Origin: Cystobacterineae bacterium
GTDB taxonomy: Bacteria > Myxococcota > Myxococcia > Myxococcales > Myxococcaceae
Length of the DNA stretch: 64,000 nucleotides
NCBI GenBank assembly: GCA_009782175.1
Contig: WRKR01000002.1
Location: 1-64,000, forward strand
Direction of reading: 5' to 3'
This document shows positions 43,545 through 53,032 of this stretch, piece after piece; positions within the stretch are counted from its first letter, which is position 1; every line of letters starts with the position of its first letter. The notes below the pieces were generated by a model, which saw nothing but the letters and a program-made list of their open reading frames with translations, was not told the DNA's origin and did no database searches. A program made the position numbers and the translations under genes.

Positions 43545-44762
43545 TTAAAGCCGTTTAAAAATGAGTGAGGTATTAATTCCGCCGAAGGCGAAGTTGTTGG
43601 ACATCACATATTCGGTTTCTATGGCCCTGCCTTCTCCCGTGAGGTAATCCAACTCTGCGCATTGGGGGTCCACCTCTTGCAGGTTGAGGTTGGGGGCAAA
43701 CCAGCCCTCATTCATCATCTGTATGGTCAACCAGGCCTCAATGGCTCCGCAGGCGCCCAGCGTATGGCCCAAATAACTTTTGAGTGTGCTGACGGGGAGG
43801 GGGCGGCGGAATATGTTTCGCGTAATATGGCTTTCTGCAATATCGCCCGTCCCGGTGGCCGTTCCATGCGTATTTATATAGCCAATGGCCTGAGGGGGGA
43901 GGCGTGCATCTTCCAGGGCGAGGCGGAGTGCGCCCCCCATGGTTTCCGGGTTGGGGTGCGTCACATGGGTGCCATCCGTATTCGTCCCAAAGCCCACCAC
44001 CTCTGCATAAACCTGAGCACCCCTCGCCAGGGCGTGTGTATATTCTTCCAAAATGAGGGTGCCTGCTCCCTCTCCTATAACCAGGCCGTCTCTGTTTTTG
44101 TCATAGGCAGCGGGAGTAGAAGCGGGGGCCTCATTTTTCGTGCTGGTGGCAAAGAGGGTATCAAACACGGCTGCATCTGCTGCGCTTAATTCTTCTGCGC
44201 CGCCGGCAAGCATAATGTCCTGGAGGCCATGGCCTATGGTTTCATAGGCATAGCCAATGGCCATGCTGCCGGAGGTGCAGGCGGTGTTGGTGGGAATCAT
44301 TCTTCCGGTGAGGCCATAAAACACTTCGAGGTTGGTGGCGCAGGTATGGGGCATGGCCTTTATATACGTAGTGGCATTCATGTCCTTCAAGTCGCCGTGG
44401 ACAAGCATGCCATAAAAGTCCATGAGGGGGGGGACGCTGCCCAGGGAGGAGCCATAGGCCACACCGCAGCGGCCATTGCGCAAAAGGGGTGAGTCCACGA
44501 GGCCGGCCATGTGCAGGGCGTTGTTGGTGGCGGTGAGGGAGAGGAGGGCGACGCGGCCCATGCCGCGGATTTTTTTTCGTGGGTATTCCGGGAGGGCGGC
44601 ATCTATAGGGGCGGCCAGCCGGGTATTCATTTTCTCATATTTGTCCCAGGCGTCCATGCGGCGCACACAATTTTTATAGAGGCGCAGCTTGGCCAAAATA
44701 TCTGGCCACGCATTCCCCAGCGCGCTGACGACGCCGCCGCCGCTCACCACCACGCGCCTCAC
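43545..44762 (-). CDS. Beta-ketoacyl-ACP synthase, aryl-polyene (ApeR-like)
   Basis: 405 residues, FabF-like with a complete Cys-His-His triad: NTACTSGSMAIG, INTHGTATGTGD and LGHTLGACGA. The start MRRVVVSGGGVVSALGNAW and the VRRMDAWDKYEKMNTRLAAP region are closer to the synthases of aryl polyene gene clusters than to fabF. It would extend a polyene chain with malonyl units. It is last in a five-gene set where all neighbours overlap; ATG 44762 overlaps the reductase stop. Confidence 0.8.
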   Translation of the reverse strand: MRRVVVSGGGVVSALGNAWPDILAKLRLYKNCVRRMDAWDKYEKMNTRLAAPIDAALPEYPRKKIRGMGRVALLSLTATNNALHMAGLVDSPLLRNGRCGVAYGSSLGSVPPLMDFYGMLVHGDLKDMNATTYIKAMPHTCATNLEVFYGLTGRMIPTNTACTSGSMAIGYAYETIGHGLQDIMLAGGAEELSAADAAVFDTLFATSTKNEAPASTPAAYDKNRDGLVIGEGAGTLILEEYTHALARGAQVYAEVVGFGTNTDGTHVTHPNPETMGGALRLALEDARLPPQAIGYINTHGTATGTGDIAESHITRNIFRRPLPVSTLKSYLGHTLGACGAIEAWLTIQMMNEGWFAPNLNLQEVDPQCAELDYLTGEGRAIETEYVMSNNFAFGGINTSLIFKRL

Positions 44763-45484
44763 AGCAAGCCACCGTCAACGGCAATCACCTGCCGCGTAAT
44801 ATAGGAGGCCGCATCGGAGAGGAGAAACAGCACCAGGGCCGCCACCTCCTGGCTTTTTCCTATTCTCCCCATGGGTATAGAGGGGAGGAGTTTCTCCAGG
44901 GGTGCCTCTTTCACCATTTCCGTATCAATAAGCCCTGGGGCAATGCAATTTACCGTAATAGAGCGGCTTGCCAGCTCCAGGGCGAGGGCTTTGGTTGCGC
45001 CAATAATGCCGGCTTTGGAGGCACTATAATTCACTTGTCCGCGGTTGCCGGCAATTCCGGAAACGGAGGCGAGGCTAATAATTCTGCCCTGTTTTTTTCT
45101 GCAAAGGGGCATAACCAGGGGGTGGAGCACATTATAAAATCCATCCAAGTTGGTATGGAGGACTTTGTCCCATTCCTCTGCGGTGAGGGCCGGAAAGGCA
45201 TTGTCCGCGCAAATGCCCGCATTGCAGACAATGCCCCAAAGGGCGCCCTCTCTTTGGCTATATTCCTCGAGGGTGCTTTGTGTTTCTTTTCTGTTGGCAA
45301 TATCAAAGCGGAGCAGCTCCACGGCTTTGCCTTGTGCTTTTATTTCTTCTTGCAGGGAGAGGGCTGCATTTTCGCTGTGGCAATAGTGGGCAATAACCTT
45401 ATAGTCCGCCGCTGCTGCTGCCAGGGCAATGGCTCTGCCTATGCCCCGGCTTGCTCCCGTAACCAACACACTTCTTCCATTCAT
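44759..45484 (-). CDS. FabG-like ketoreductase, aryl-polyene (ApeQ-like)
   Basis: 241 residues; short-chain reductase with TGASRGIG, CNAGI, catalytic Ser in LASVSG and Tyr-Lys in YSASKAG, and the FabG-type end SYITRQVIAVDGGLL. It should reduce the 3-ketoacyl-ACP made by the flanking synthases. Both ends overlap neighbours by four bases, so translation is coupled. Confidence 0.85.
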   Translation of the reverse strand: MNGRSVLVTGASRGIGRAIALAAAAADYKVIAHYCHSENAALSLQEEIKAQGKAVELLRFDIANRKETQSTLEEYSQREGALWGIVCNAGICADNAFPALTAEEWDKVLHTNLDGFYNVLHPLVMPLCRKKQGRIISLASVSGIAGNRGQVNYSASKAGIIGATKALALELASRSITVNCIAPGLIDTEMVKEAPLEKLLPSIPMGRIGKSQEVAALVLFLLSDAASYITRQVIAVDGGLL

Positions 45485-45930
45485 CTGTTTATCACCGCCG
45501 AAAAATCCGCGGACTCCATAATGGTAAGTTTGGCTGAAACTGCTTTTATCTGGCCTTCAAAAACGCTGCATTGGAAGGAGGAAACATTGTCCACAACGGT
45601 GTCCTCTTCTATTTCAATGCGGACTGTCCCCTGAAGCACAGGCACATGCAGCACCAACTCTGAAACGCTGAGGATGAAGCCGAAGAGGGGTTTTTCGCCT
45701 GCGGCCCGCCTCTTCAGTCCGGAGAGGGCGGAAGTGCTTTGGGCCATCAACTCAAAGCCTGCCCAGGCGGGCAAGCCCTTCAACGCTTCTTTAAAAAAGA
45801 GGCAATCCTCCTCAATGTCATATTCTGCGACCAGGGCGTGTCCTTGGGGCTCCCAGGAAACAATTCTGCTTAAGAGAAACATTTTCCCTTCGTGGGGGAT
45901 TAAGGTTGCCAATTCTTCTTTGTCGATCAT
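45481..45930 (-). CDS. Hotdog-fold 3-hydroxyacyl-ACP dehydratase (ApeP-like)
   Basis: 149 residues from ATG 45930 (overlapping the upstream synthase stop). LIPHEGKMFLLSRI corresponds to the FabZ/ApeP catalytic His block and GLPAWAGFELMAQSTSALSG to the second helix block with its acidic residue. It would dehydrate 3-hydroxyacyl-ACP to the trans-enoyl form, leaving double bonds unreduced to build a polyene. Confidence 0.78.
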   Translation of the reverse strand: MIDKEELATLIPHEGKMFLLSRIVSWEPQGHALVAEYDIEEDCLFFKEALKGLPAWAGFELMAQSTSALSGLKRRAAGEKPLFGFILSVSELVLHVPVLQGTVRIEIEEDTVVDNVSSFQCSVFEGQIKAVSAKLTIMESADFSAVINR

Positions 45931-47129
45931 AGCTCTTCCGCCCTGCGCATGAGGAGGCTTAAGTTGCAACCCCCAAAGGCAAAGGAGTTATTCATACAAT
46001 AACGGGCTTTCCTGAAGTGGGTTTTTTCTGCAGGCAACCTCTCCTGGGCTTTCACCAAGTGCAAAGCGGGGAGTGTTTCATCCACAACACCATCCCAGCA
46101 ATGGGGGGGCAACGTGCCGGTGTGCAGCACACCCCAGCACAGGGCCAACTCCAAGGCCCCCGCCGCCCCCAAAGTATGCCCTATAACAGCTTTGGTGGAG
46201 CTGGCCGGTGGTTGGCCCTTGCCGAAAACAGCATGCATGGCTTTTGCTTCTGCGCTGTCATTGAGGCGTGTCCCCGTCCCGTGGAGGTTAACATAGGCCA
46301 CCTCAGTGGGGCTTATTCCCGCGTGGTGGAGGGCAGCCTGCATGGCGGCGGCGGCCCCTATGCCTTCGGGGTGGGGAGCCGTCATGTGGAAGGCGTCGGC
46401 GCTCTCGCCATAGCCTGCCAGCACCATGGCCTCCTCCTCCAATTTTTCTCTGGAGAGCACAAAAAAGGCTGCCCCTTCTCCCAGGTTAATGCCCTTGCGG
46501 TTTTTGCTAAAGGGGTTGCTATGTTCTGCAGAAAGCGCCTCCAATGCCCAAAAGCCCAGGAGAGAAGCCTCGGAGGCAATGTCTACCCCGCCGGCAACAA
46601 CAGCATCACACAGGCCAAAAGCAATAAGCTCTGCCCCTCGGGCAATGGCTGAAGCGCTGGAGGCGCAGGCTGTGGCGAGGGAAAAAACCGGCCCCTCAAG
46701 GCCCAAAAACCGGGCGGCATATTCAGCGGGCCTGGCGGCGCTTTGCAAGGAGAGTTGATAGCCTTGAGGCCATGCGCCCCTTTCAAAAAAAGACCGATGT
46801 GCCGGGAGGGAGTCCTCCGTCCCATTGTCACAGGAGCCCAGGCACAGGCCCACCCTCTGAGGGCCAAAGCGCTGCAAGGCTTTTTCCGCCGTAGGGCGCA
46901 GTTGTTGCAGCGCGGTGGTACAGAGGAAAAGCAGCTTGGTGGCGGCCTCTGGAGGTGGCGTTGGGGCGCGGCCGACGAGGAAGCTGTGGGTTTTGGCGCC
47001 GACATGGAGGGTGGTGGGGAGAATGCCGCTTTGGTCGCCGCGCACAGCGGCCTCAAAAAAAGGCTCAAAGGCCTGTCCGGCGCAGCAAATGAGTCCGGGT
47101 TTTGAGAGGAAAATGGGCTGAAAACTCAC
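45927..47129 (-). CDS. Beta-ketoacyl-ACP synthase, aryl-polyene (ApeO-like)
   Basis: 400 residues from GTG 47129, which has GGGGAG seven bases upstream and overlaps the DUF3261 stop (GTGA). Triad: ATACASSASAIARG, NLHGTGTRLND and [13 protein letters not shown], all intact. The N-terminal part is divergent from FabF and lacks the usual long opening, like ApeO-type synthases. It probably works with the ApeR-like enzyme, the reductase and the dehydratase on an ACP-bound chain. Confidence 0.78.
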   Translation of the reverse strand: MSFQPIFLSKPGLICCAGQAFEPFFEAAVRGDQSGILPTTLHVGAKTHSFLVGRAPTPPPEAATKLLFLCTTALQQLRPTAEKALQRFGPQRVGLCLGSCDNGTEDSLPAHRSFFERGAWPQGYQLSLQSAARPAEYAARFLGLEGPVFSLATACASSASAIARGAELIAFGLCDAVVAGGVDIASEASLLGFWALEALSAEHSNPFSKNRKGINLGEGAAFFVLSREKLEEEAMVLAGYGESADAFHMTAPHPEGIGAAAAMQAALHHAGISPTEVAYVNLHGTGTRLNDSAEAKAMHAVFGKGQPPASSTKAVIGHTLGAAGALELALCWGVLHTGTLPPHCWDGVVDETLPALHLVKAQERLPAEKTHFRKARYCMNNSFAFGGCNLSLLMRRAEEL

Positions 47130-47818
47130 AAAAACGCTCCCCAAATAACATAGGAATAGCCGCGCAAATGGTTGATATATTCAACCCTGTCGGCTTTTTT
47201 TTCAATTTCAATAATGGGTTTATTCCCCTCATAGAGGAGGCGTTTTTCCACACCTGAGTCCTGCGTTGTGGTGTGTAGCCTCAGCTTCCCCAGAGAGAGG
47301 CGCAGGGCCTCGGGTGTATAAAAACACAGTTGGAAGTCCGCCACCACATATTCAGGTTTTATGTGTTTGGGGAAATGAGCGGAAGAGAAGCTTAAGTTTT
47401 TCCCATCATACACCAGAGTACCCAGGCTGTTGCCCATGTCATTGAGCAACTCTATGTGGAGGCTTGTTTTATCCGCCTTTACCCAGGCACTCATATGGAA
47501 AGGGGCCTCTCCCTGGGTACCACTAATGCGTTGAGGCATATCCAGGTTTTTTTCAATATATTGAGGTGGCAACAAAACAAAGAAGGAGCTGTTGCTCAAG
47601 GGAACAGGCGCATAACTATTTTCAGTTGCTATTTTTTTTGCGCAAGAGCCCCCCAGAAAAGGGAGAAGCACCCCCCAAAGGAACAACACATAGCGAGCTA
47701 CATAGCGAGGCAGATGGCGAGGCAGATGGCGAAGCACATGGCGAGGCAGATGGCGAGGCGGCATGGGTGTGGGTTTTAGCAAGTTTTGCTCTGCATGGCG
47801 AGGCGGGGTTTTTTCCAT
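47126..47818 (-). CDS. DUF3261 lipoprotein of the aryl-polyene-like operon
   Basis: Up to 230 residues. The mature region starts after lipobox-like LGGSC (about residue 59) and shows the DUF3261 plan: MPQRISGTQG, LGTLVYDGKNL, YVVADFQLCFYTPEALRLSLG and IIEIEKKADRVEYIN. DUF3261 lipoproteins precede the ApeO synthase in aryl polyene clusters and may help deliver the product to the outer membrane. The leader is odd: PRHLPRHVLRHLPRHLPRYV arises from a 12-base tandem repeat, so the real start is uncertain; an ATG at 47764 is the alternative. It is first in the operon. Confidence 0.7.
   Translation of the reverse strand: MEKTPPRHAEQNLLKPTPMPPRHLPRHVLRHLPRHLPRYVARYVLFLWGVLLPFLGGSCAKKIATENSYAPVPLSNSSFFVLLPPQYIEKNLDMPQRISGTQGEAPFHMSAWVKADKTSLHIELLNDMGNSLGTLVYDGKNLSFSSAHFPKHIKPEYVVADFQLCFYTPEALRLSLGKLRLHTTTQDSGVEKRLLYEGNKPIIEIEKKADRVEYINHLRGYSYVIWGAFL
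47696..47764. repeat. 12-base tandem repeat in the DUF3261 leader
   Basis: About five copies of a GATGGCGAGGCA unit, read on the minus strand as Arg-His/Tyr-Leu-Pro repeats. It sits before or within the signal peptide region of the lipoprotein gene. Confidence 0.6.
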
Positions 47819-48179
47819 GTCTGATGAAAAAACCTACATATAACTCGAGTGGATAGCCCGGCTGGCCCAGAGAAAGTCAGTTGCAAAAATAAGTGACTAA
47901 GGATATACGGCAATGAGCATAGCAGAGGAACCGGCCGGAAGTCCCTTCTAGAAGCTTTTGCATATGGTTTCCTTTTTCAAAACGCAGCCCCCTCGCGAAG
48001 CTCCGCTTTCCCCCAAAGCCATGGTGGCAGCAACACGCGCGGCAACAGCTGTAGCAACATATACAGCAGCATATGAAGCAATACATGTAGCAACACTTTG
48101 ACTTACGTTTTTGCAAAAATGGAACACTTTCAGGGCCGACACCTATTTCCTTAAAGCTTGTTTTGTGAGCAATAACCTT
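47819..48179. other. Divergent spacer between the polyene operon and the Cys-repeat gene
   Basis: It should hold promoters for both directions. 48020-48100 has repeating GCAACA/GCAGCATATGAAGCAATACATG units. Frames open on the minus strand give only Ala/Val-Cys repeats and are not believed. No gene is seen. Confidence 0.4.
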
Positions 48180-50105
48180 ATGAGAACAAATAACAATTTA
48201 AATATCCGTCTTTTATCCACAGCAGGGGCATTGGCCTGCATGTTGGGGTGGGCCTGCACTGCAGAAGTGGGTTTTTTCAACAGCTTCGTGGATGGGGGCT
48301 GTGTTACGGGAAGCCCTCAGGCTTGTCCTCAAGGCCAAAGCTGCATAGGCCCCATGGGCTCCCCTATGGGGGTTTTGGGCCTCTGTTTGTCTGAGTGCCT
48401 CGTGGGAGAGCCCAATGCCTGCCCTGAAAATACCCATTGCCTGCCCATAACAGGGGAAAAGGAGTTGGGGACTTGCCAAAGCAGCTGCAACCCCAATGCC
48501 CCCAATGCCTGTCCCAAGGGGCAAGCCTGCACAGAAATAGAGGGCACGCCCACCTGTCAACCTCTCCCTGAGTGTTATGTGGGCGACAACATGTGCCCTG
48601 CGGGACAAAGCTGCGTGGGCAACCCTGGCGCTCCCGCAGGCAGCCCGGGCCGTTGCGAGGCTGAGGCTGAGGCCGAGTGCCGCATAGGTGAAAACAGTTG
48701 TGCAGAAGGCCATGTCTGCAAGGGAGAAGAAGGTGCAAAAACCGGCGAGCCAGGCTCATGCCAACCCGAATGCCGCGTCGGCAGCAACAATGGGTGCCCT
48801 GACGGCCATGCCTGCATAGGCACTGACAATCCACAATACCTGGAGCCGGGAAGATGTTACCTCATCTGCCATGGCGACAACAATGAGTGCCCGACAGGCC
48901 AAGTCTGCATAGGCGCGCAAGCGGGCACTTCGGGCACATGCCAAATGCCACCCCAGTGCGTTGTGGGCGACAACAGCCTGTGTGAGTTGTGGCAAAACTG
49001 CATAGGCATTTCCAGCAACCAAGTGGGCGCCCCAGGCCGCTGCCAGGGAGAGCCCGAATGCCGCGTGGGCGACAACCATTGCCCTGCATGGCAAAGCTGC
49101 ACAGGCTATGAAAGCAATGCCAACAACGCCCCGGGCCGCTGCCAGGGAGAGCCCGAATGCCGTGTGGGCGACAACCATTGCCCCCTATGGCAAAGCTGCA
49201 TAGGCTATGAAAGCAATGCCAACAACGCCCCGGGCCGCTGCCAGGGAGAGCCTCAATGCCGCGTGGGCAACAACAATTGCCCTGTCAACACCCAGTGCAT
49301 AGGCTATGAAAGCAATGCCAACGGCGCCCCAGGCACCTGCCAAGCCGCTCCTGCTCCCAGAGATATTACCCGGCTTTATATGTTTTTTGGCCACAACTCG
49401 GTGGGGGGAGAAATAGTCAGCGGCTTGTCCAACCAAGTGCAGGGGTTGAGAATACTCTCTTATACGCCGACCTCTATAACCAACACGGCGGGAAACCATT
49501 TCGGCTCACCCACCCGCCAACCCGGACTGCTGAATGTAACCACCTATGGCTTGTATAACACCTATAACCAAGCCATCCAAGAGGTGGACGCTTTCACGGC
49601 ACATGTGCGCGGCATCATCAATGGACGCGGCAACATTCCCGGACAACCCCTGGACATTGTCTTCATGAAGTTTTGCTTCCTGGCTTTCTATAATATGAAT
49701 TCAGGACAGGAAACCTCGCTCTTTAATTATTATGCCGAGCAGATGGACATCCTCCAAAGAGACTTCCCCTCGCTGATTGTGGTGCACCTCACCCAAACCA
49801 CCCGGCCTTGCGCGGAGACTCAAAGCTATCTCCACGCGGCCAATATACGCTCTATGAATTATAGGCGACTCATGCTCAACCGCTATGCCAGCGGCGGCCG
49901 GGTTTTCGACTTGACGCTTGCCGAGGCCACCGGCGCCAACGGGAACGTCAACCATTGCACCTACCGCGATGCCTCCGGAGAACTCGTCCTGGGGCTGCGC
50001 TCAGAATATGCACCCAGCTCCACCAGCACCGATGGACACCTCAACACCACAGGACGCAATACCATAGCTCGGGAATTGGCCAACTTCCTCGCCAACGTCC
50101 GTTAG
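48180..50105 (+). CDS. Cysteine-repeat lipoprotein with C-terminal SGNH-like domain
   Basis: 641 residues from ATG 48180. The N-terminal hydrophobic helix ends in a non-canonical lipobox MLGWAC (Cys about 26). Residues about 45-390 are some ten repeats of about 33 residues of the form ECRVGDN-x-CP-x4-CIG-x(7)-GAPGRCQ, each with four Cys, disulfide-knotted by appearance; the last three come from nearly identical 99-base DNA units. Residues about 398-641 form one domain: MFFGHNSVGGEIVSGL, DIVFMKFCFLAF, DFPSLIVVHLTQTTRP and STDGHLNTTGRN. The Ser in HNSVG and the D-x-H in TDGHLN suggest an SGNH-type hydrolase without the GDSL motif. Function unknown; probably surface-exposed. The following terminator isolates it. 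Confidence 0.8.
   Translation: MRTNNNLNIRLLSTAGALACMLGWACTAEVGFFNSFVDGGCVTGSPQACPQGQSCIGPMGSPMGVLGLCLSECLVGEPNACPENTHCLPITGEKELGTCQSSCNPNAPNACPKGQACTEIEGTPTCQPLPECYVGDNMCPAGQSCVGNPGAPAGSPGRCEAEAEAECRIGENSCAEGHVCKGEEGAKTGEPGSCQPECRVGSNNGCPDGHACIGTDNPQYLEPGRCYLICHGDNNECPTGQVCIGAQAGTSGTCQMPPQCVVGDNSLCELWQNCIGISSNQVGAPGRCQGEPECRVGDNHCPAWQSCTGYESNANNAPGRCQGEPECRVGDNHCPLWQSCIGYESNANNAPGRCQGEPQCRVGNNNCPVNTQCIGYESNANGAPGTCQAAPAPRDITRLYMFFGHNSVGGEIVSGLSNQVQGLRILSYTPTSITNTAGNHFGSPTRQPGLLNVTTYGLYNTYNQAIQEVDAFTAHVRGIINGRGNIPGQPLDIVFMKFCFLAFYNMNSGQETSLFNYYAEQMDILQRDFPSLIVVHLTQTTRPCAETQSYLHAANIRSMNYRRLMLNRYASGGRVFDLTLAEATGANGNVNHCTYRDASGELVLGLRSEYAPSSTSTDGHLNTTGRNTIARELANFLANVR
49048..49344. repeat. Three 99-base coding tandem repeats
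   Basis: Units start at 49048, 49147 and 49246; each encodes a 33-residue cysteine repeat. Units one and two differ at only a few bases, unit three is a little more divergent. Confidence 0.85.
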
Positions 50106-50134
50106 CGCGCCTCAGCACCGCCTTAACCCACCTC

Positions 50135-50173
50135 GCATGCCGGGAAGCTTTCTCTTCCCGGCGTGCTTTTTTT
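50135..50173 (+). terminator. Rho-independent terminator
   Basis: Thirteen-base stem GCATGCCGGGAAG/CTTCCCGGCGTGC with a six-base loop and seven T, 30 bases after the lipoprotein stop. Confidence 0.92.
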
Positions 50174-50771
50174 AATGCTCACGCGCATACCCCGCTTTGC
50201 TTTAGCTTGCAGACAAAACCCCCACCCTCTCATGGGGGCTGCTGTCCATAATAAAATGCCAGAGCGGCTTTATGTTGAAGTGAGCCTTCAAAGACATAGC
50301 GCGTGAGGCTCGCTATGGAACCGATAATGGGCCTTATTTGCGAATTGTAGGCAAAAGCTGTTTTGCAGCGCTATTTTTTGCCCAAATACACATGCCTGCC
50401 CACACTCAGCTTCTCTTTTTCCTTCACAAGCCCGCCTAAAAGAAAAATTTGCAACCCTTTTCATGCCTTAAACCTTATTCCTCACAAACACAGACAGCAG
50501 CTTTTTTCAAAAATGTGCTCTGTTGCGCAGAAATGTATTCAGAGGCACAGAAATATCTCCCTGAAAACAACTATATGCACAATGTAGTCCTGGGCTGTAA
50601 CAAAAGTGTGGCCTATGCGAAAACGCGAATGGAGCGTGAGCTCCAAAGGAGTTGCCTTACGAAAACAACCTCTATTTCCGCTCTATTTTTTTTGCATACA
50701 GGGCGCCTACACCTATGAGCATGTGAAATTCTCTCCTTCAGCCTCACAGTCAGTCTCATGAAGCCTCACAG

Positions 50772-50868
50772 TTGGGTTTAGCCGTTGAGCTTTGCAGTTG
50801 AACTTTGCCGTTGAGCTTTGCAATTGAACTTTGCAGTTGAACTTTGCAGTTGAACTTTGCAGTTGAGC
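50772..50868. repeat. 13-base tandem repeat array
   Basis: About seven copies of TTGAACTTTGCAG (variants TTGAGCTTTGCAG and TTGAACTTTGCCG), in phase from 50785, with a degenerate first unit at 50772. It is noncoding and lies about 190 bases upstream of the second cysteine-repeat gene. Confidence 0.8.
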
Positions 50869-51055
50869 CTTCATTGCATTCGCCCTTCACGCATATGGGC
50901 CGGAGGTTTTTGCTTCCACTTAAAATGCCTCCTCAAAAAAACTTAAGCTCCCGCCCCACTTGAGAGCTCTAACTCTTTAATATTCTTTTAAATTAACCTC
51001 ATTTGTTTGCTTAAAACTTCCTATTTTTATGTCCAAAACAAGAAGAAGATAGATT

Positions 51056-53032
51056 ATGAATATACAACTCAGTTGTTTTAAATGTGCAAAACTTGCATTC
51101 ACCCTTGCCTTGGGGGTTGGGTTGGCTTGCTCAGGGGAGGCTGAGCGACAAAACTCCAATTCCACAGGCCTTAAAACCAAGCTGTCCGCAGCCCACCCCG
51201 ATGTCCCCTGGACACAACTGGGCTCCACCCCTGCGGAGCTGAGTGCGCTCAGCCAGAAAAAGGTTTTCCTTGCGCACAATACCGTTGGCTCCAACCTTGT
51301 CAGCGGACTTAGGCGCGTTGCCCCTGGGCTTTCTATACGCTCGGGCAGCTCGGCCTCCTCGTTGAGTGCCCCCACCCTCCTGGAGCATTTAATAAGCTAT
51401 GAGGCCAGGCCCCTGGAAAAAATAGCGGCCTTCGAAAACCTGGTAAACAACCTGGGGCCCCTCCTGGATATTGCCCTCATAAAGCTGAGCCACATTGACT
51501 TTGATAAATTTGTAGGCATCCGCGTAGAGGACATAACCACCGCCTATGCGGCCACCATAAGCAGGCTGCAAGCCCGCTTCCCCCATGTGGTTTTTGCGCA
51601 TGTTACGGCACCGCTTTATACGCGCGCCGCCTCCTGGGACAATGCCTCAAGAGAGCAATTTAATGCCTGGCTGCGCACCACCTATAAAGGCCACGTTTTT
51701 GACTTGGCCGCCCTGGAAGCCATGCGCGCCGATGGGAGTTTGGCGCTCGCCCTGGACGGGCGCAGCCCCGCGCTGGCCGACGAGTGGGCCCAGGATACCC
51801 ACCAACTCAACACGGAAGGCGCCAACCGCATTGCCACCTCCCTCATCGGCTTTTTGGCTTCAGACTTTTCCTGCGACAACACCCCGGAGCCCGAGTGCCG
51901 CATAGGGGACAACAGCTGCCCCGCCAACCATATATGCATAGGCTTGGACAGCAATGTACAGGGTGCACCGGGGGCTTGTCAGCTTGTGGAGCCGGAGCCC
52001 GAGTGCCGCATAGGGGACAACAGCTGCCCCGCCAACCATATATGCATAGGCTTGGACAGCAATGCGCAGGGTGCGCCAGGGGCTTGTCAGCTTGTGGAGC
52101 CGGAGCCCGAGTGCCGCATAGGGGATAACAGCTGCCCCGCCAACCATATATGCATAGGCTTGGACAGCAATGCGCAGGGTGCACCGGGGGCTTGTCAGCT
52201 TGTGGAGCCGGAGCCCGAGTGCCGCATAGGGGACAACAGCTGCCCCGCCAACCATATATGCATAGGGTTGGACAGCAATGCGCAGGGTGCGCCGGGGACA
52301 TGTGTGCGAGAGCAAGTTGACACAGGGGAGCCTTGGACAAGCGTTGAGTTTTCTCCAGCTGACTTAAATGCTTTGCGGCTTCGCAAAGTTTTCTTCGGGC
52401 ACAACTCTGTGGGCCAAAACACCATTGACGGGATGAAACGTGTGGCTTCGACCCTGAGCATACGCTCGGCCAACAGCAGCAATTTAAATGCTGTTATTGG
52501 GCAACTTGGAACGGCTCCGGCGCTCGTTGAATATCTGATCGACAACAACGGCAACCCCCTTGCCAAAATTAACGCCTTTGAAAACGCCATGAAAACCGTT
52601 GGCAACCGTGTGGATATTGCTTTTATGAAGCTGTGCTATGCGGACTTTCCCACCAATATAAACAACCTCATTGCCGCCTATGAGGCAGCCATGAACAGGT
52701 TGCAAAGAGATTTTCCAAGCGTGCTTTTTATACACATTACTGCGCCGCTTTATGACTGGAATGCCTCCTGGGACAATGCCTCAAGAGAGCAATTTAACAC
52801 CTGGCTGCGCACCACCTATAAAGGCCGCGTTTTTGACTTGGCAACCATTGAGTCCATTCGCCCCAACGGCACCATCGCCTTGTCACGGGACAACAAAACC
52901 ATTGCCTTGGCCAATGAGTGGACTTCTGACGGCGGACACCTCAATGAGAGCGGCGCAAACCGTATGGGAAGCGGGCTTATAGGCTTCTTGGCTTCTCAAC
53001 CCCTCAAAACAGACAACATCCTTCTCTTCTAA
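51056..53032 (+). CDS. Lipoprotein with two SGNH-like domains around a cysteine-repeat array
   Basis: 658 residues. Lipoprotein signal with LGVGLAC (Cys about 25). Domain 1 (about 67-272) and domain 2 (about 440-650) are homologous: KKVFLAHNTVGSN versus RKVFFGHNSVGQN, both with DIA-x-(I/M)-KL, SRLQARFPHVVFAHVTAPLY versus NRLQRDFPSVLFIHITAPLY, and ASWDNASREQFN in both. Domain 2 keeps Ser in HNSVG and the SDGGHLN end; domain 1 has Thr for Ser and QDTHQLN, with His displaced, so it may be inactive. Between them are four 36-residue repeats, each with four Cys (PECRIGDNSCP ... CIGLDSNAQGAPGACQ). It is clearly related to the 48180 gene with the domain order changed. Confidence 0.82.
   Translation: MNIQLSCFKCAKLAFTLALGVGLACSGEAERQNSNSTGLKTKLSAAHPDVPWTQLGSTPAELSALSQKKVFLAHNTVGSNLVSGLRRVAPGLSIRSGSSASSLSAPTLLEHLISYEARPLEKIAAFENLVNNLGPLLDIALIKLSHIDFDKFVGIRVEDITTAYAATISRLQARFPHVVFAHVTAPLYTRAASWDNASREQFNAWLRTTYKGHVFDLAALEAMRADGSLALALDGRSPALADEWAQDTHQLNTEGANRIATSLIGFLASDFSCDNTPEPECRIGDNSCPANHICIGLDSNVQGAPGACQLVEPEPECRIGDNSCPANHICIGLDSNAQGAPGACQLVEPEPECRIGDNSCPANHICIGLDSNAQGAPGACQLVEPEPECRIGDNSCPANHICIGLDSNAQGAPGTCVREQVDTGEPWTSVEFSPADLNALRLRKVFFGHNSVGQNTIDGMKRVASTLSIRSANSSNLNAVIGQLGTAPALVEYLIDNNGNPLAKINAFENAMKTVGNRVDIAFMKLCYADFPTNINNLIAAYEAAMNRLQRDFPSVLFIHITAPLYDWNASWDNASREQFNTWLRTTYKGRVFDLATIESIRPNGTIALSRDNKTIALANEWTSDGGHLNESGANRMGSGLIGFLASQPLKTDNILLF
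51887..52318. repeat. Four 108-base coding tandem repeats
   Basis: Units begin at 51887, 51995, 52103 and 52211 and are almost identical in DNA, far more so than protein constraint would require, which points to recent duplication or gene conversion. Each encodes a 36-residue four-cysteine repeat. Confidence 0.9.

Follow-up and report, generated by a model that had tools for sequence, protein, structure and literature searches.

Between the two SGNH-like domains encoded by the gene at 51056–53032 (+ strand) of the window, the 64,000-nucleotide stretch of DNA analysed here, lies a tandem array of four near-identical 36-residue cysteine units, and comparison with related species gives good support to the view that this array has been homogenised since the species split. 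We put at roughly 60% the probability that the 658-aa product is a surface lipoprotein in which a dead SGNH domain is joined to an intact SGNH esterase through a disulfide-rich spacer of recombining units, a function that we infer. The gene was delimited from its open reading frame, a lipobox pattern and a match to its own genome, and comprises a lipoprotein-type signal, a degenerate SGNH-like domain (N domain, 51239–51868, +), the cysteine array and a second SGNH-like domain (C domain, 52364–53002, +). Comparisons within the genus draw on one genome per species, namely the genome that contains the window (G000) and those of two other species (G001 and G002).

With a score of 779, the array outscores every other Tandem Repeats Finder row among the window's 20; it has a period of 108, 3.8 copies and 96% matches between 51884 and 52297, and the nearly identical 108-base repeats described in the first-pass annotation are thus real. 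Four units of 36 codons (108 = 3 x 36 bases) with the pattern C-x6-C-x5-C-x13-C extend over 51887–52318 (+) in the frame of the gene, phased unit starts falling at 51890, 51998, 52106 and 52214, and the end of this span, from 52298 onwards, lies beyond the limits of the repeat finder and is diverged. Units 1 to 3 differ from each other at 4, 3 and 3 of their 108 positions and unit 4 differs from them at 15–17, of which 13 fall in its last 24 bases, so that the array consists strictly of three full units and about 0.8 of another. Over the stretch that all four have in common, a single codon (Val/Ala, in unit 1) alters the protein and the remaining changes are synonymous, giving pS values of 0.09–0.17 and pN values of 0–0.015. 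The copies are close without being of very recent origin, and their amino-acid sequence has been kept almost unchanged; third positions, described earlier as sharing in the near identity of the four units, are close without being identical.

An assembly error that expanded or collapsed the array had also been raised as a concern, and we consider it very unlikely that the length of the array is simply a product of short-read assembly. Such arrays do trouble assemblers, as is evident from the G001 and G002 assemblies, both of which break within theirs; against this, the window's contig runs straight through, and cysteine units occupy the same place in the gene in all three genomes of the genus. 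Furthermore, the longest exact repeat inside the array is 92 bases and each unit carries a different combination of variants, and hence the four units are distinct. The concern survives in one respect, that additional identical units may have been collapsed.

Both of the other species carry the same gene. In G001 it is found in two contig parts, the first of which encodes the signal and two N-type domains with one cysteine unit between them, followed by an array of four complete units and one cut unit that runs off the contig, while the second, on another contig, encodes the last part of an array together with the C domain; the two contig ends (C217 start and C157 end) have 67 bases in common. 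At least five distinct units are therefore present in G001, or at least six if both parts belong to one gene, and unit number between species is four in the window against at least five, probably at least six, in G001. The length variation that the first-pass annotation expected between strains is thereby supported between species. Only the end of the array and the C domain are seen in G002, where contig C75 begins inside a unit.

DNA identity between core units is 93.1–96.6% inside the window's array (6 pairs), whereas the same units average 59.3% identity to those of the G001 array (28 pairs) and 58.3% to those of G002 (8 pairs). In a tree of 34 units, from which three of the original 37 were left out because their core was incomplete, all four units of the window fall into a single group (97/95), and dS among them is 0.09–0.19, whereas between species the C domain gives values of 0.89 and 0.97. 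Since the same array is built from different units in two relatives, it was rewritten after the species split, and homogenisation from that time is well supported; the recent expansion or conversion suggested earlier from the window alone is now backed by a comparison with two species. Strong homogenisation is shown in the window's array alone, and in the arrays of G001 and G002 it is a weaker proposition. The G001 units average 73.9% identity among themselves and 71.1% to those of G002, they form no single group in the tree, and dS is 0.40 for the most alike G001 pair.

The adjacent paralogue at 48180–50105 (+) is taken from the ATG at 48180, the mechanical open reading frame beginning at 48111, and encodes a lipoprotein-like signal, nine cysteine units defined by pattern and one SGNH-like domain. 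Core identities between its successive units are 48, 53, 59, 63, 62, 63, 94 and 76%, as against 95, 97 and 94% in the window's array, and the contrast previously drawn with a neighbour whose repeats have mostly diverged therefore stands (48–94% versus 94–97%). The last three units of the neighbour had been described as close, which is true of units 7 and 8, while unit 9 is not really so; Tandem Repeats Finder places 99-bp units at 49028–49342 (+), with 3.2 copies and 88% matches. Units 1 (94/80), 2, 4 and 6 each pair in the tree with a unit of the G001 neighbour, and unit 9 groups with a G001 neighbour unit plus one unit from contig C43, so these five of the nine predate the species split; units 3 and 5 have no resolved placement in the 34-unit tree. 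Units 7 and 8 pair together, and the G001 neighbour shows the same pairing of its own units 7 and 8 (99/90 and 98/96), a more limited homogenisation at one and the same position in both neighbours. Adjacent paralogues thus provide a natural contrast: the units of one mostly retain their positional identity from species to species, and those of the other have been rewritten in one lineage.

The source of the window's units is local, as no near copy of the unit was found elsewhere in the window's genome, where the three other matches are all partial (72% over query bases 4–96, 84% over 38 and 90% over 29) and where a distant donor was not found. Change of the array by recombination or slippage under purifying selection is most likely, and the comparison of species supports it. 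We propose that units of such length and likeness, lying in frame, would be added, removed and overwritten through recombination or through slippage in replication; that in the window's lineage such turnover would have brought the array close to uniformity after the lineage parted from its relatives; and that selection would have retained the amino-acid sequence of the unit during turnover. In this lipoprotein, predicted to be of the outer-membrane type, four near-identical units of 36 residues would keep an SGNH domain that is dead apart from an SGNH esterase domain that is intact. Disulfide bonding, secretion to the surface of the cell and the role of spacer are all predicted features of this arrangement, and the intact domain would act as esterase or deacetylase on a polysaccharide that carries acyl groups.

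Turnover of the same kind could also be neutral, the array being a passive spacer exposed to slippage and to purifying selection on unit sequence, with a length that has no selected effect. It would fit with this that silent changes build up in the array with dN close to zero, and that other cysteine-rich lipoprotein-like genes of the genus have homogenised arrays with other unit lengths (78 bp in 11.3 copies with 90% matches; 87 bp in 6.9 copies with 93% matches), as a general process predicts. However, neutrality leaves unexplained the retention of many cysteine-module genes in genomes of 2.1–2.7 Mb, and we regard it as a possibility of some weight that we would nonetheless bet against.

Phase-variable surface proteins had been offered as the analogy for the array, and this part of the earlier interpretation finds no support. 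A unit of 36 codons is a multiple of three bases, and so its gain or loss alters the length of the protein without a frameshift and leaves the on/off state unaffected, which rules out phase variation by frameshift. More broadly, a strictly phase-variable or antigenically variable surface protein, in which repeat number would govern expression or immune exposure, seems to us scarcely credible. The lipobox pattern and the homogenised tandem repeats are features that such a protein might have, as is a second tandem repeat of 13 bp (50784–50866, +; 6.4 copies by Tandem Repeats Finder), which lies between the neighbour and the gene, 190 bp upstream of the latter, and could in principle affect transcription. 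Yet the 13-bp array is missing from the corresponding stretch of G001, and a search of 50100–51300 for sigma-70-like sites, other promoter types being outside its range, found none on the + strand and three on the strand opposite the gene. Moreover, the opposite of antigenic diversification is seen, the amino-acid sequence of the unit being almost invariant. Elsewhere in the genome the 13-bp repeat has only three short matches (E 0.3–0.6).

The reading as a two-domain surface lipoprotein depends further on the anatomy of the protein. It has a lipobox-like GLAC at Cys25, and its G001 counterpart has GVAC, both recognised by pattern only, which make it plausible that the protein is secreted or sits at the surface. 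By motif and alignment, the C domain has GHNSVG in block I and SDGGHLN in block V, so that the Ser and the Asp-x-x-His are present, although the block V Asp is not always at this position among other SGNH copies. The N domain has HNTVG and QDTHQLN, with Thr in place of Ser and Gln where the aligned His would be. In G001, one N-type domain has HNAVG with NDALLN and the other HNTIG with GDSQLN. Among the 16 SGNH copies translated, a set that excludes G001 C198 and G002 C12, both of them further copies within the genus, the Ser and the aligned His are absent from all three N-type domains, where Thr or Ala replaces Ser and Gln or Leu replaces His, and both are kept in all 13 others. Judged by these motifs, the N domain is probably a catalytically dead pseudoenzyme.

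An AlphaFold2 model of the C domain, built from five sequences, has a mean pLDDT of 80.7 and a pTM of 0.83. At E <= 0.001 Foldseek matched it to nine chains, drawn from seven PDB entries, with TM-scores of about 0.4–0.5; the best is 2hsj (E 8.2e-06), whose title is putative platelet activating factor, and the matches include OatA, PatB and a lipopolysaccharide acetyltransferase domain among acetyltransferases, as well as a GDSL-family protein, a GDSL esterase and platelet activating factor acetylhydrolase. A second structural comparison returned Z values of 12.3–14.6 over 50 rows, mostly SGNH-type esterases, with designed scaffolds, recognised by title, at ranks 1, 4 and 5. On the strength of the model, the C domain has an SGNH-type alpha/beta fold. 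At the level of sequence the relationship is remote: the Pfam GDSL cut-off was not reached, PF13472 (GDSL_2) appearing in three of the five alignment members (best E 0.0037) and not being listed for the window's own C domain, and a comparison of the SGNH alignment with solved structures by sequence gave four matches at E 0.54–0.93 that were taken as chance. The model of the full-length protein is poor (mean pLDDT 58.7, about 50 in the array), too poor for a structure search, and the cysteine array matched no solved structure by sequence up to E 1.

Regarding the family to which the cysteine units might belong, PF14625 (Lustrin_cystein) scores 30.8 over the whole protein, in four stretches, against a cut-off of 27; single unit copies score 15.8–17.2 each and the neighbour paralogue 14.9, and no match exceeds the cut-off in the search of the three genus genomes. 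Identity with the TraA-type cysteine repeat was considered and rejected. Neither the 658-aa protein nor the neighbour has an NCBIfam match up to E 10, and the TIGR04201 search of the genus gave no row at 51056–53032 and 15.6 bits at the neighbour, against a cut-off of 25. TIGR04201 does exceed its cut-off once in each genome of the genus, in frames of 242–274 aa (G000 C12, 20255–20320; G001 C218; G002 C8).

Sequence exchange in this gene may extend to the SGNH-like domains themselves, in which a conversion-like tract was detected by sequence comparison: 77 of 80 bases at 51629–51708 (+) in the N domain are identical to those at 52763–52842 (+) in the C domain. The two domains are 60.7% identical overall and 96.2% identical over the best 26-codon segment, a value that none of 2000 codon shuffles reached, the segment having been picked as the best. 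Codons for the same residue are identical in 21 of 22 cases inside the segment, against 39 of 84 outside it. Seven other N-versus-C pairs, serving as controls, peak at 70.5–80.8%, with between 9/19 and 14/19 same-residue codons identical inside, and for three of them 21, 29 and 47 of the 2000 shuffles came out as high. The peaks of six of the seven controls fall where the window's does, which indicates that this region is conserved in general; what sets the window's gene apart is identity at silent positions within the tract, for which conversion is the likeliest cause.

A profile of the C domain matches 50 of the 96 family genomes, that is, the three of the genus, with eight stretches in G000 (two of them in gene 51056–53032), seven in G001 and five in G002, and 47 of the 93 others, with one each. 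The profile of the cysteine array finds 18 stretches in G000, 14 in G001 and 16 in G002. Outside the genus it matches one of the 93 family genomes, and weakly (E 1.8e-4 in a 74-aa frame, with at most 42 candidates scored per genome), and across the phylum it matches none of 192 genomes, family genomes included, at E 1e-5 (at most 20 candidates scored per genome). At this depth of search, where absence is no proof, the module appears to be found almost only in the genus, whose genomes measure 2.1–2.7 Mb compared with 3.9–13.8 Mb for the other 93. A wider proposal, which we make tentatively and hold to be rather improbable in its entirety, is that this small-genome lineage expanded modular cysteine-array lipoproteins together with SGNH esterases, and that a dead SGNH domain would serve as a binding module tied to a live one by a disulfide-rich spacer of adjustable length, with intragenic recombination tuning the spacer and copying between the domains.

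In G001 the 3' end of the gene borders a cluster that encodes, in order, a NAD-synthase-like protein, an AMP ligase, an asparagine-synthase-type protein, a pair of hexapeptide transferases and a pair of SGNH proteins. The gene's contig in G002 carries the first three of these cluster genes, and the others are on another contig. This adjacency in two species speaks for the enzyme reading, and the separate location of the cluster in the window's genome speaks against it. The families concerned (NAD synthase, AMP-binding ligase, asparagine synthase) were tested on the G000 copy only. The cluster of the window's genome is on contig C43 (locus L019, 3594–14121), apart from gene 51056–53032, and there four SGNH genes precede two hexapeptide transferases, the asparagine-synthase-type gene, the AMP ligase and the NAD-synthase-like gene, with a Cys-SGNH gene after them.

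Cysteine-rich genes of other kinds were also observed in the genus. The 78-bp array cited above belongs to a lipoprotein-like gene of 1080 aa in the window's genome (L096, contig C26, 4527–5405) and the 87-bp array to a gene of G002, which also has a 96-bp unit in about 27 copies (75% matches) within a 1043-aa open frame (L097, contig C29, 1189–3786). At four loci (L020, L021, L022 and L024) cysteine modules are joined to a C-terminal region of another type that has an end motif in common, and a PQQ_2 match was found in L024, one of the two such fusions tested with Pfam. Within the window itself, 43545–47818 on the minus strand encodes two ketoacyl synthases, a reductase, a FabA/ApeP-like protein (below cut-offs) and a DUF3261 protein, a run that we take to be reminiscent of an aryl polyene cluster.

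Two of the three genus genomes are metagenome bins with names matching termite gut samples; a study of higher-termite gut genomes identifies Co191 as Cornitermes sp. and Emb289 as Embiratermes neotenicus, and counts five Myxococcaceae and four Polyangiaceae bins (PMC7024585). The gene would mark a surface repertoire detected almost exclusively in a single genus of small genomes and, if spacer length matters, genes of this type would make it possible to test how the reach of an enzyme is set by recombination. Our literature search found no paper combining SGNH, a cysteine-rich repeat and a lipoprotein, and the closest known systems each correspond to one part of the gene.

SGNH/GDSL hydrolases, which include carbohydrate esterases, PatB and OatA, resemble the C domain in its modelled fold, in the Ser of block I and in the Asp-x-x-His of block V. 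The family name recalls GDS(L) in block I, where the C domain has GHNS; the domain is too distant for the Pfam cut-offs and, unlike those enzymes, it is one of two such domains in a single lipoprotein-like protein, the other being degenerate and a cysteine array lying between them. TraA of Myxococcus xanthus is an envelope protein whose cysteine-rich tandem repeats are suggested to form a rigid stalk (PMC3325183). TraA combines a PA14-like domain, TIGR04201 repeats and MYXO-CTERM, whereas the 658-aa protein has SGNH-like domains, a lipobox pattern and no TIGR04201 match. In Legionella pneumophila, 7 of 26 intragenic tandem repeats are given as polymorphic among strains (PMC2639597); those repeats lie within genes as they do here, but copy number was compared among strains there and between species here. 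The vls cassettes of Borrelia undergo concerted evolution, with copies more alike within than between lineages (PMC3828179). Here the units form a tandem array in one gene, silent cassettes were not seen and amino-acid diversity in the window's array is low, and the likeness to vls lies in the similarity of copies within a lineage.
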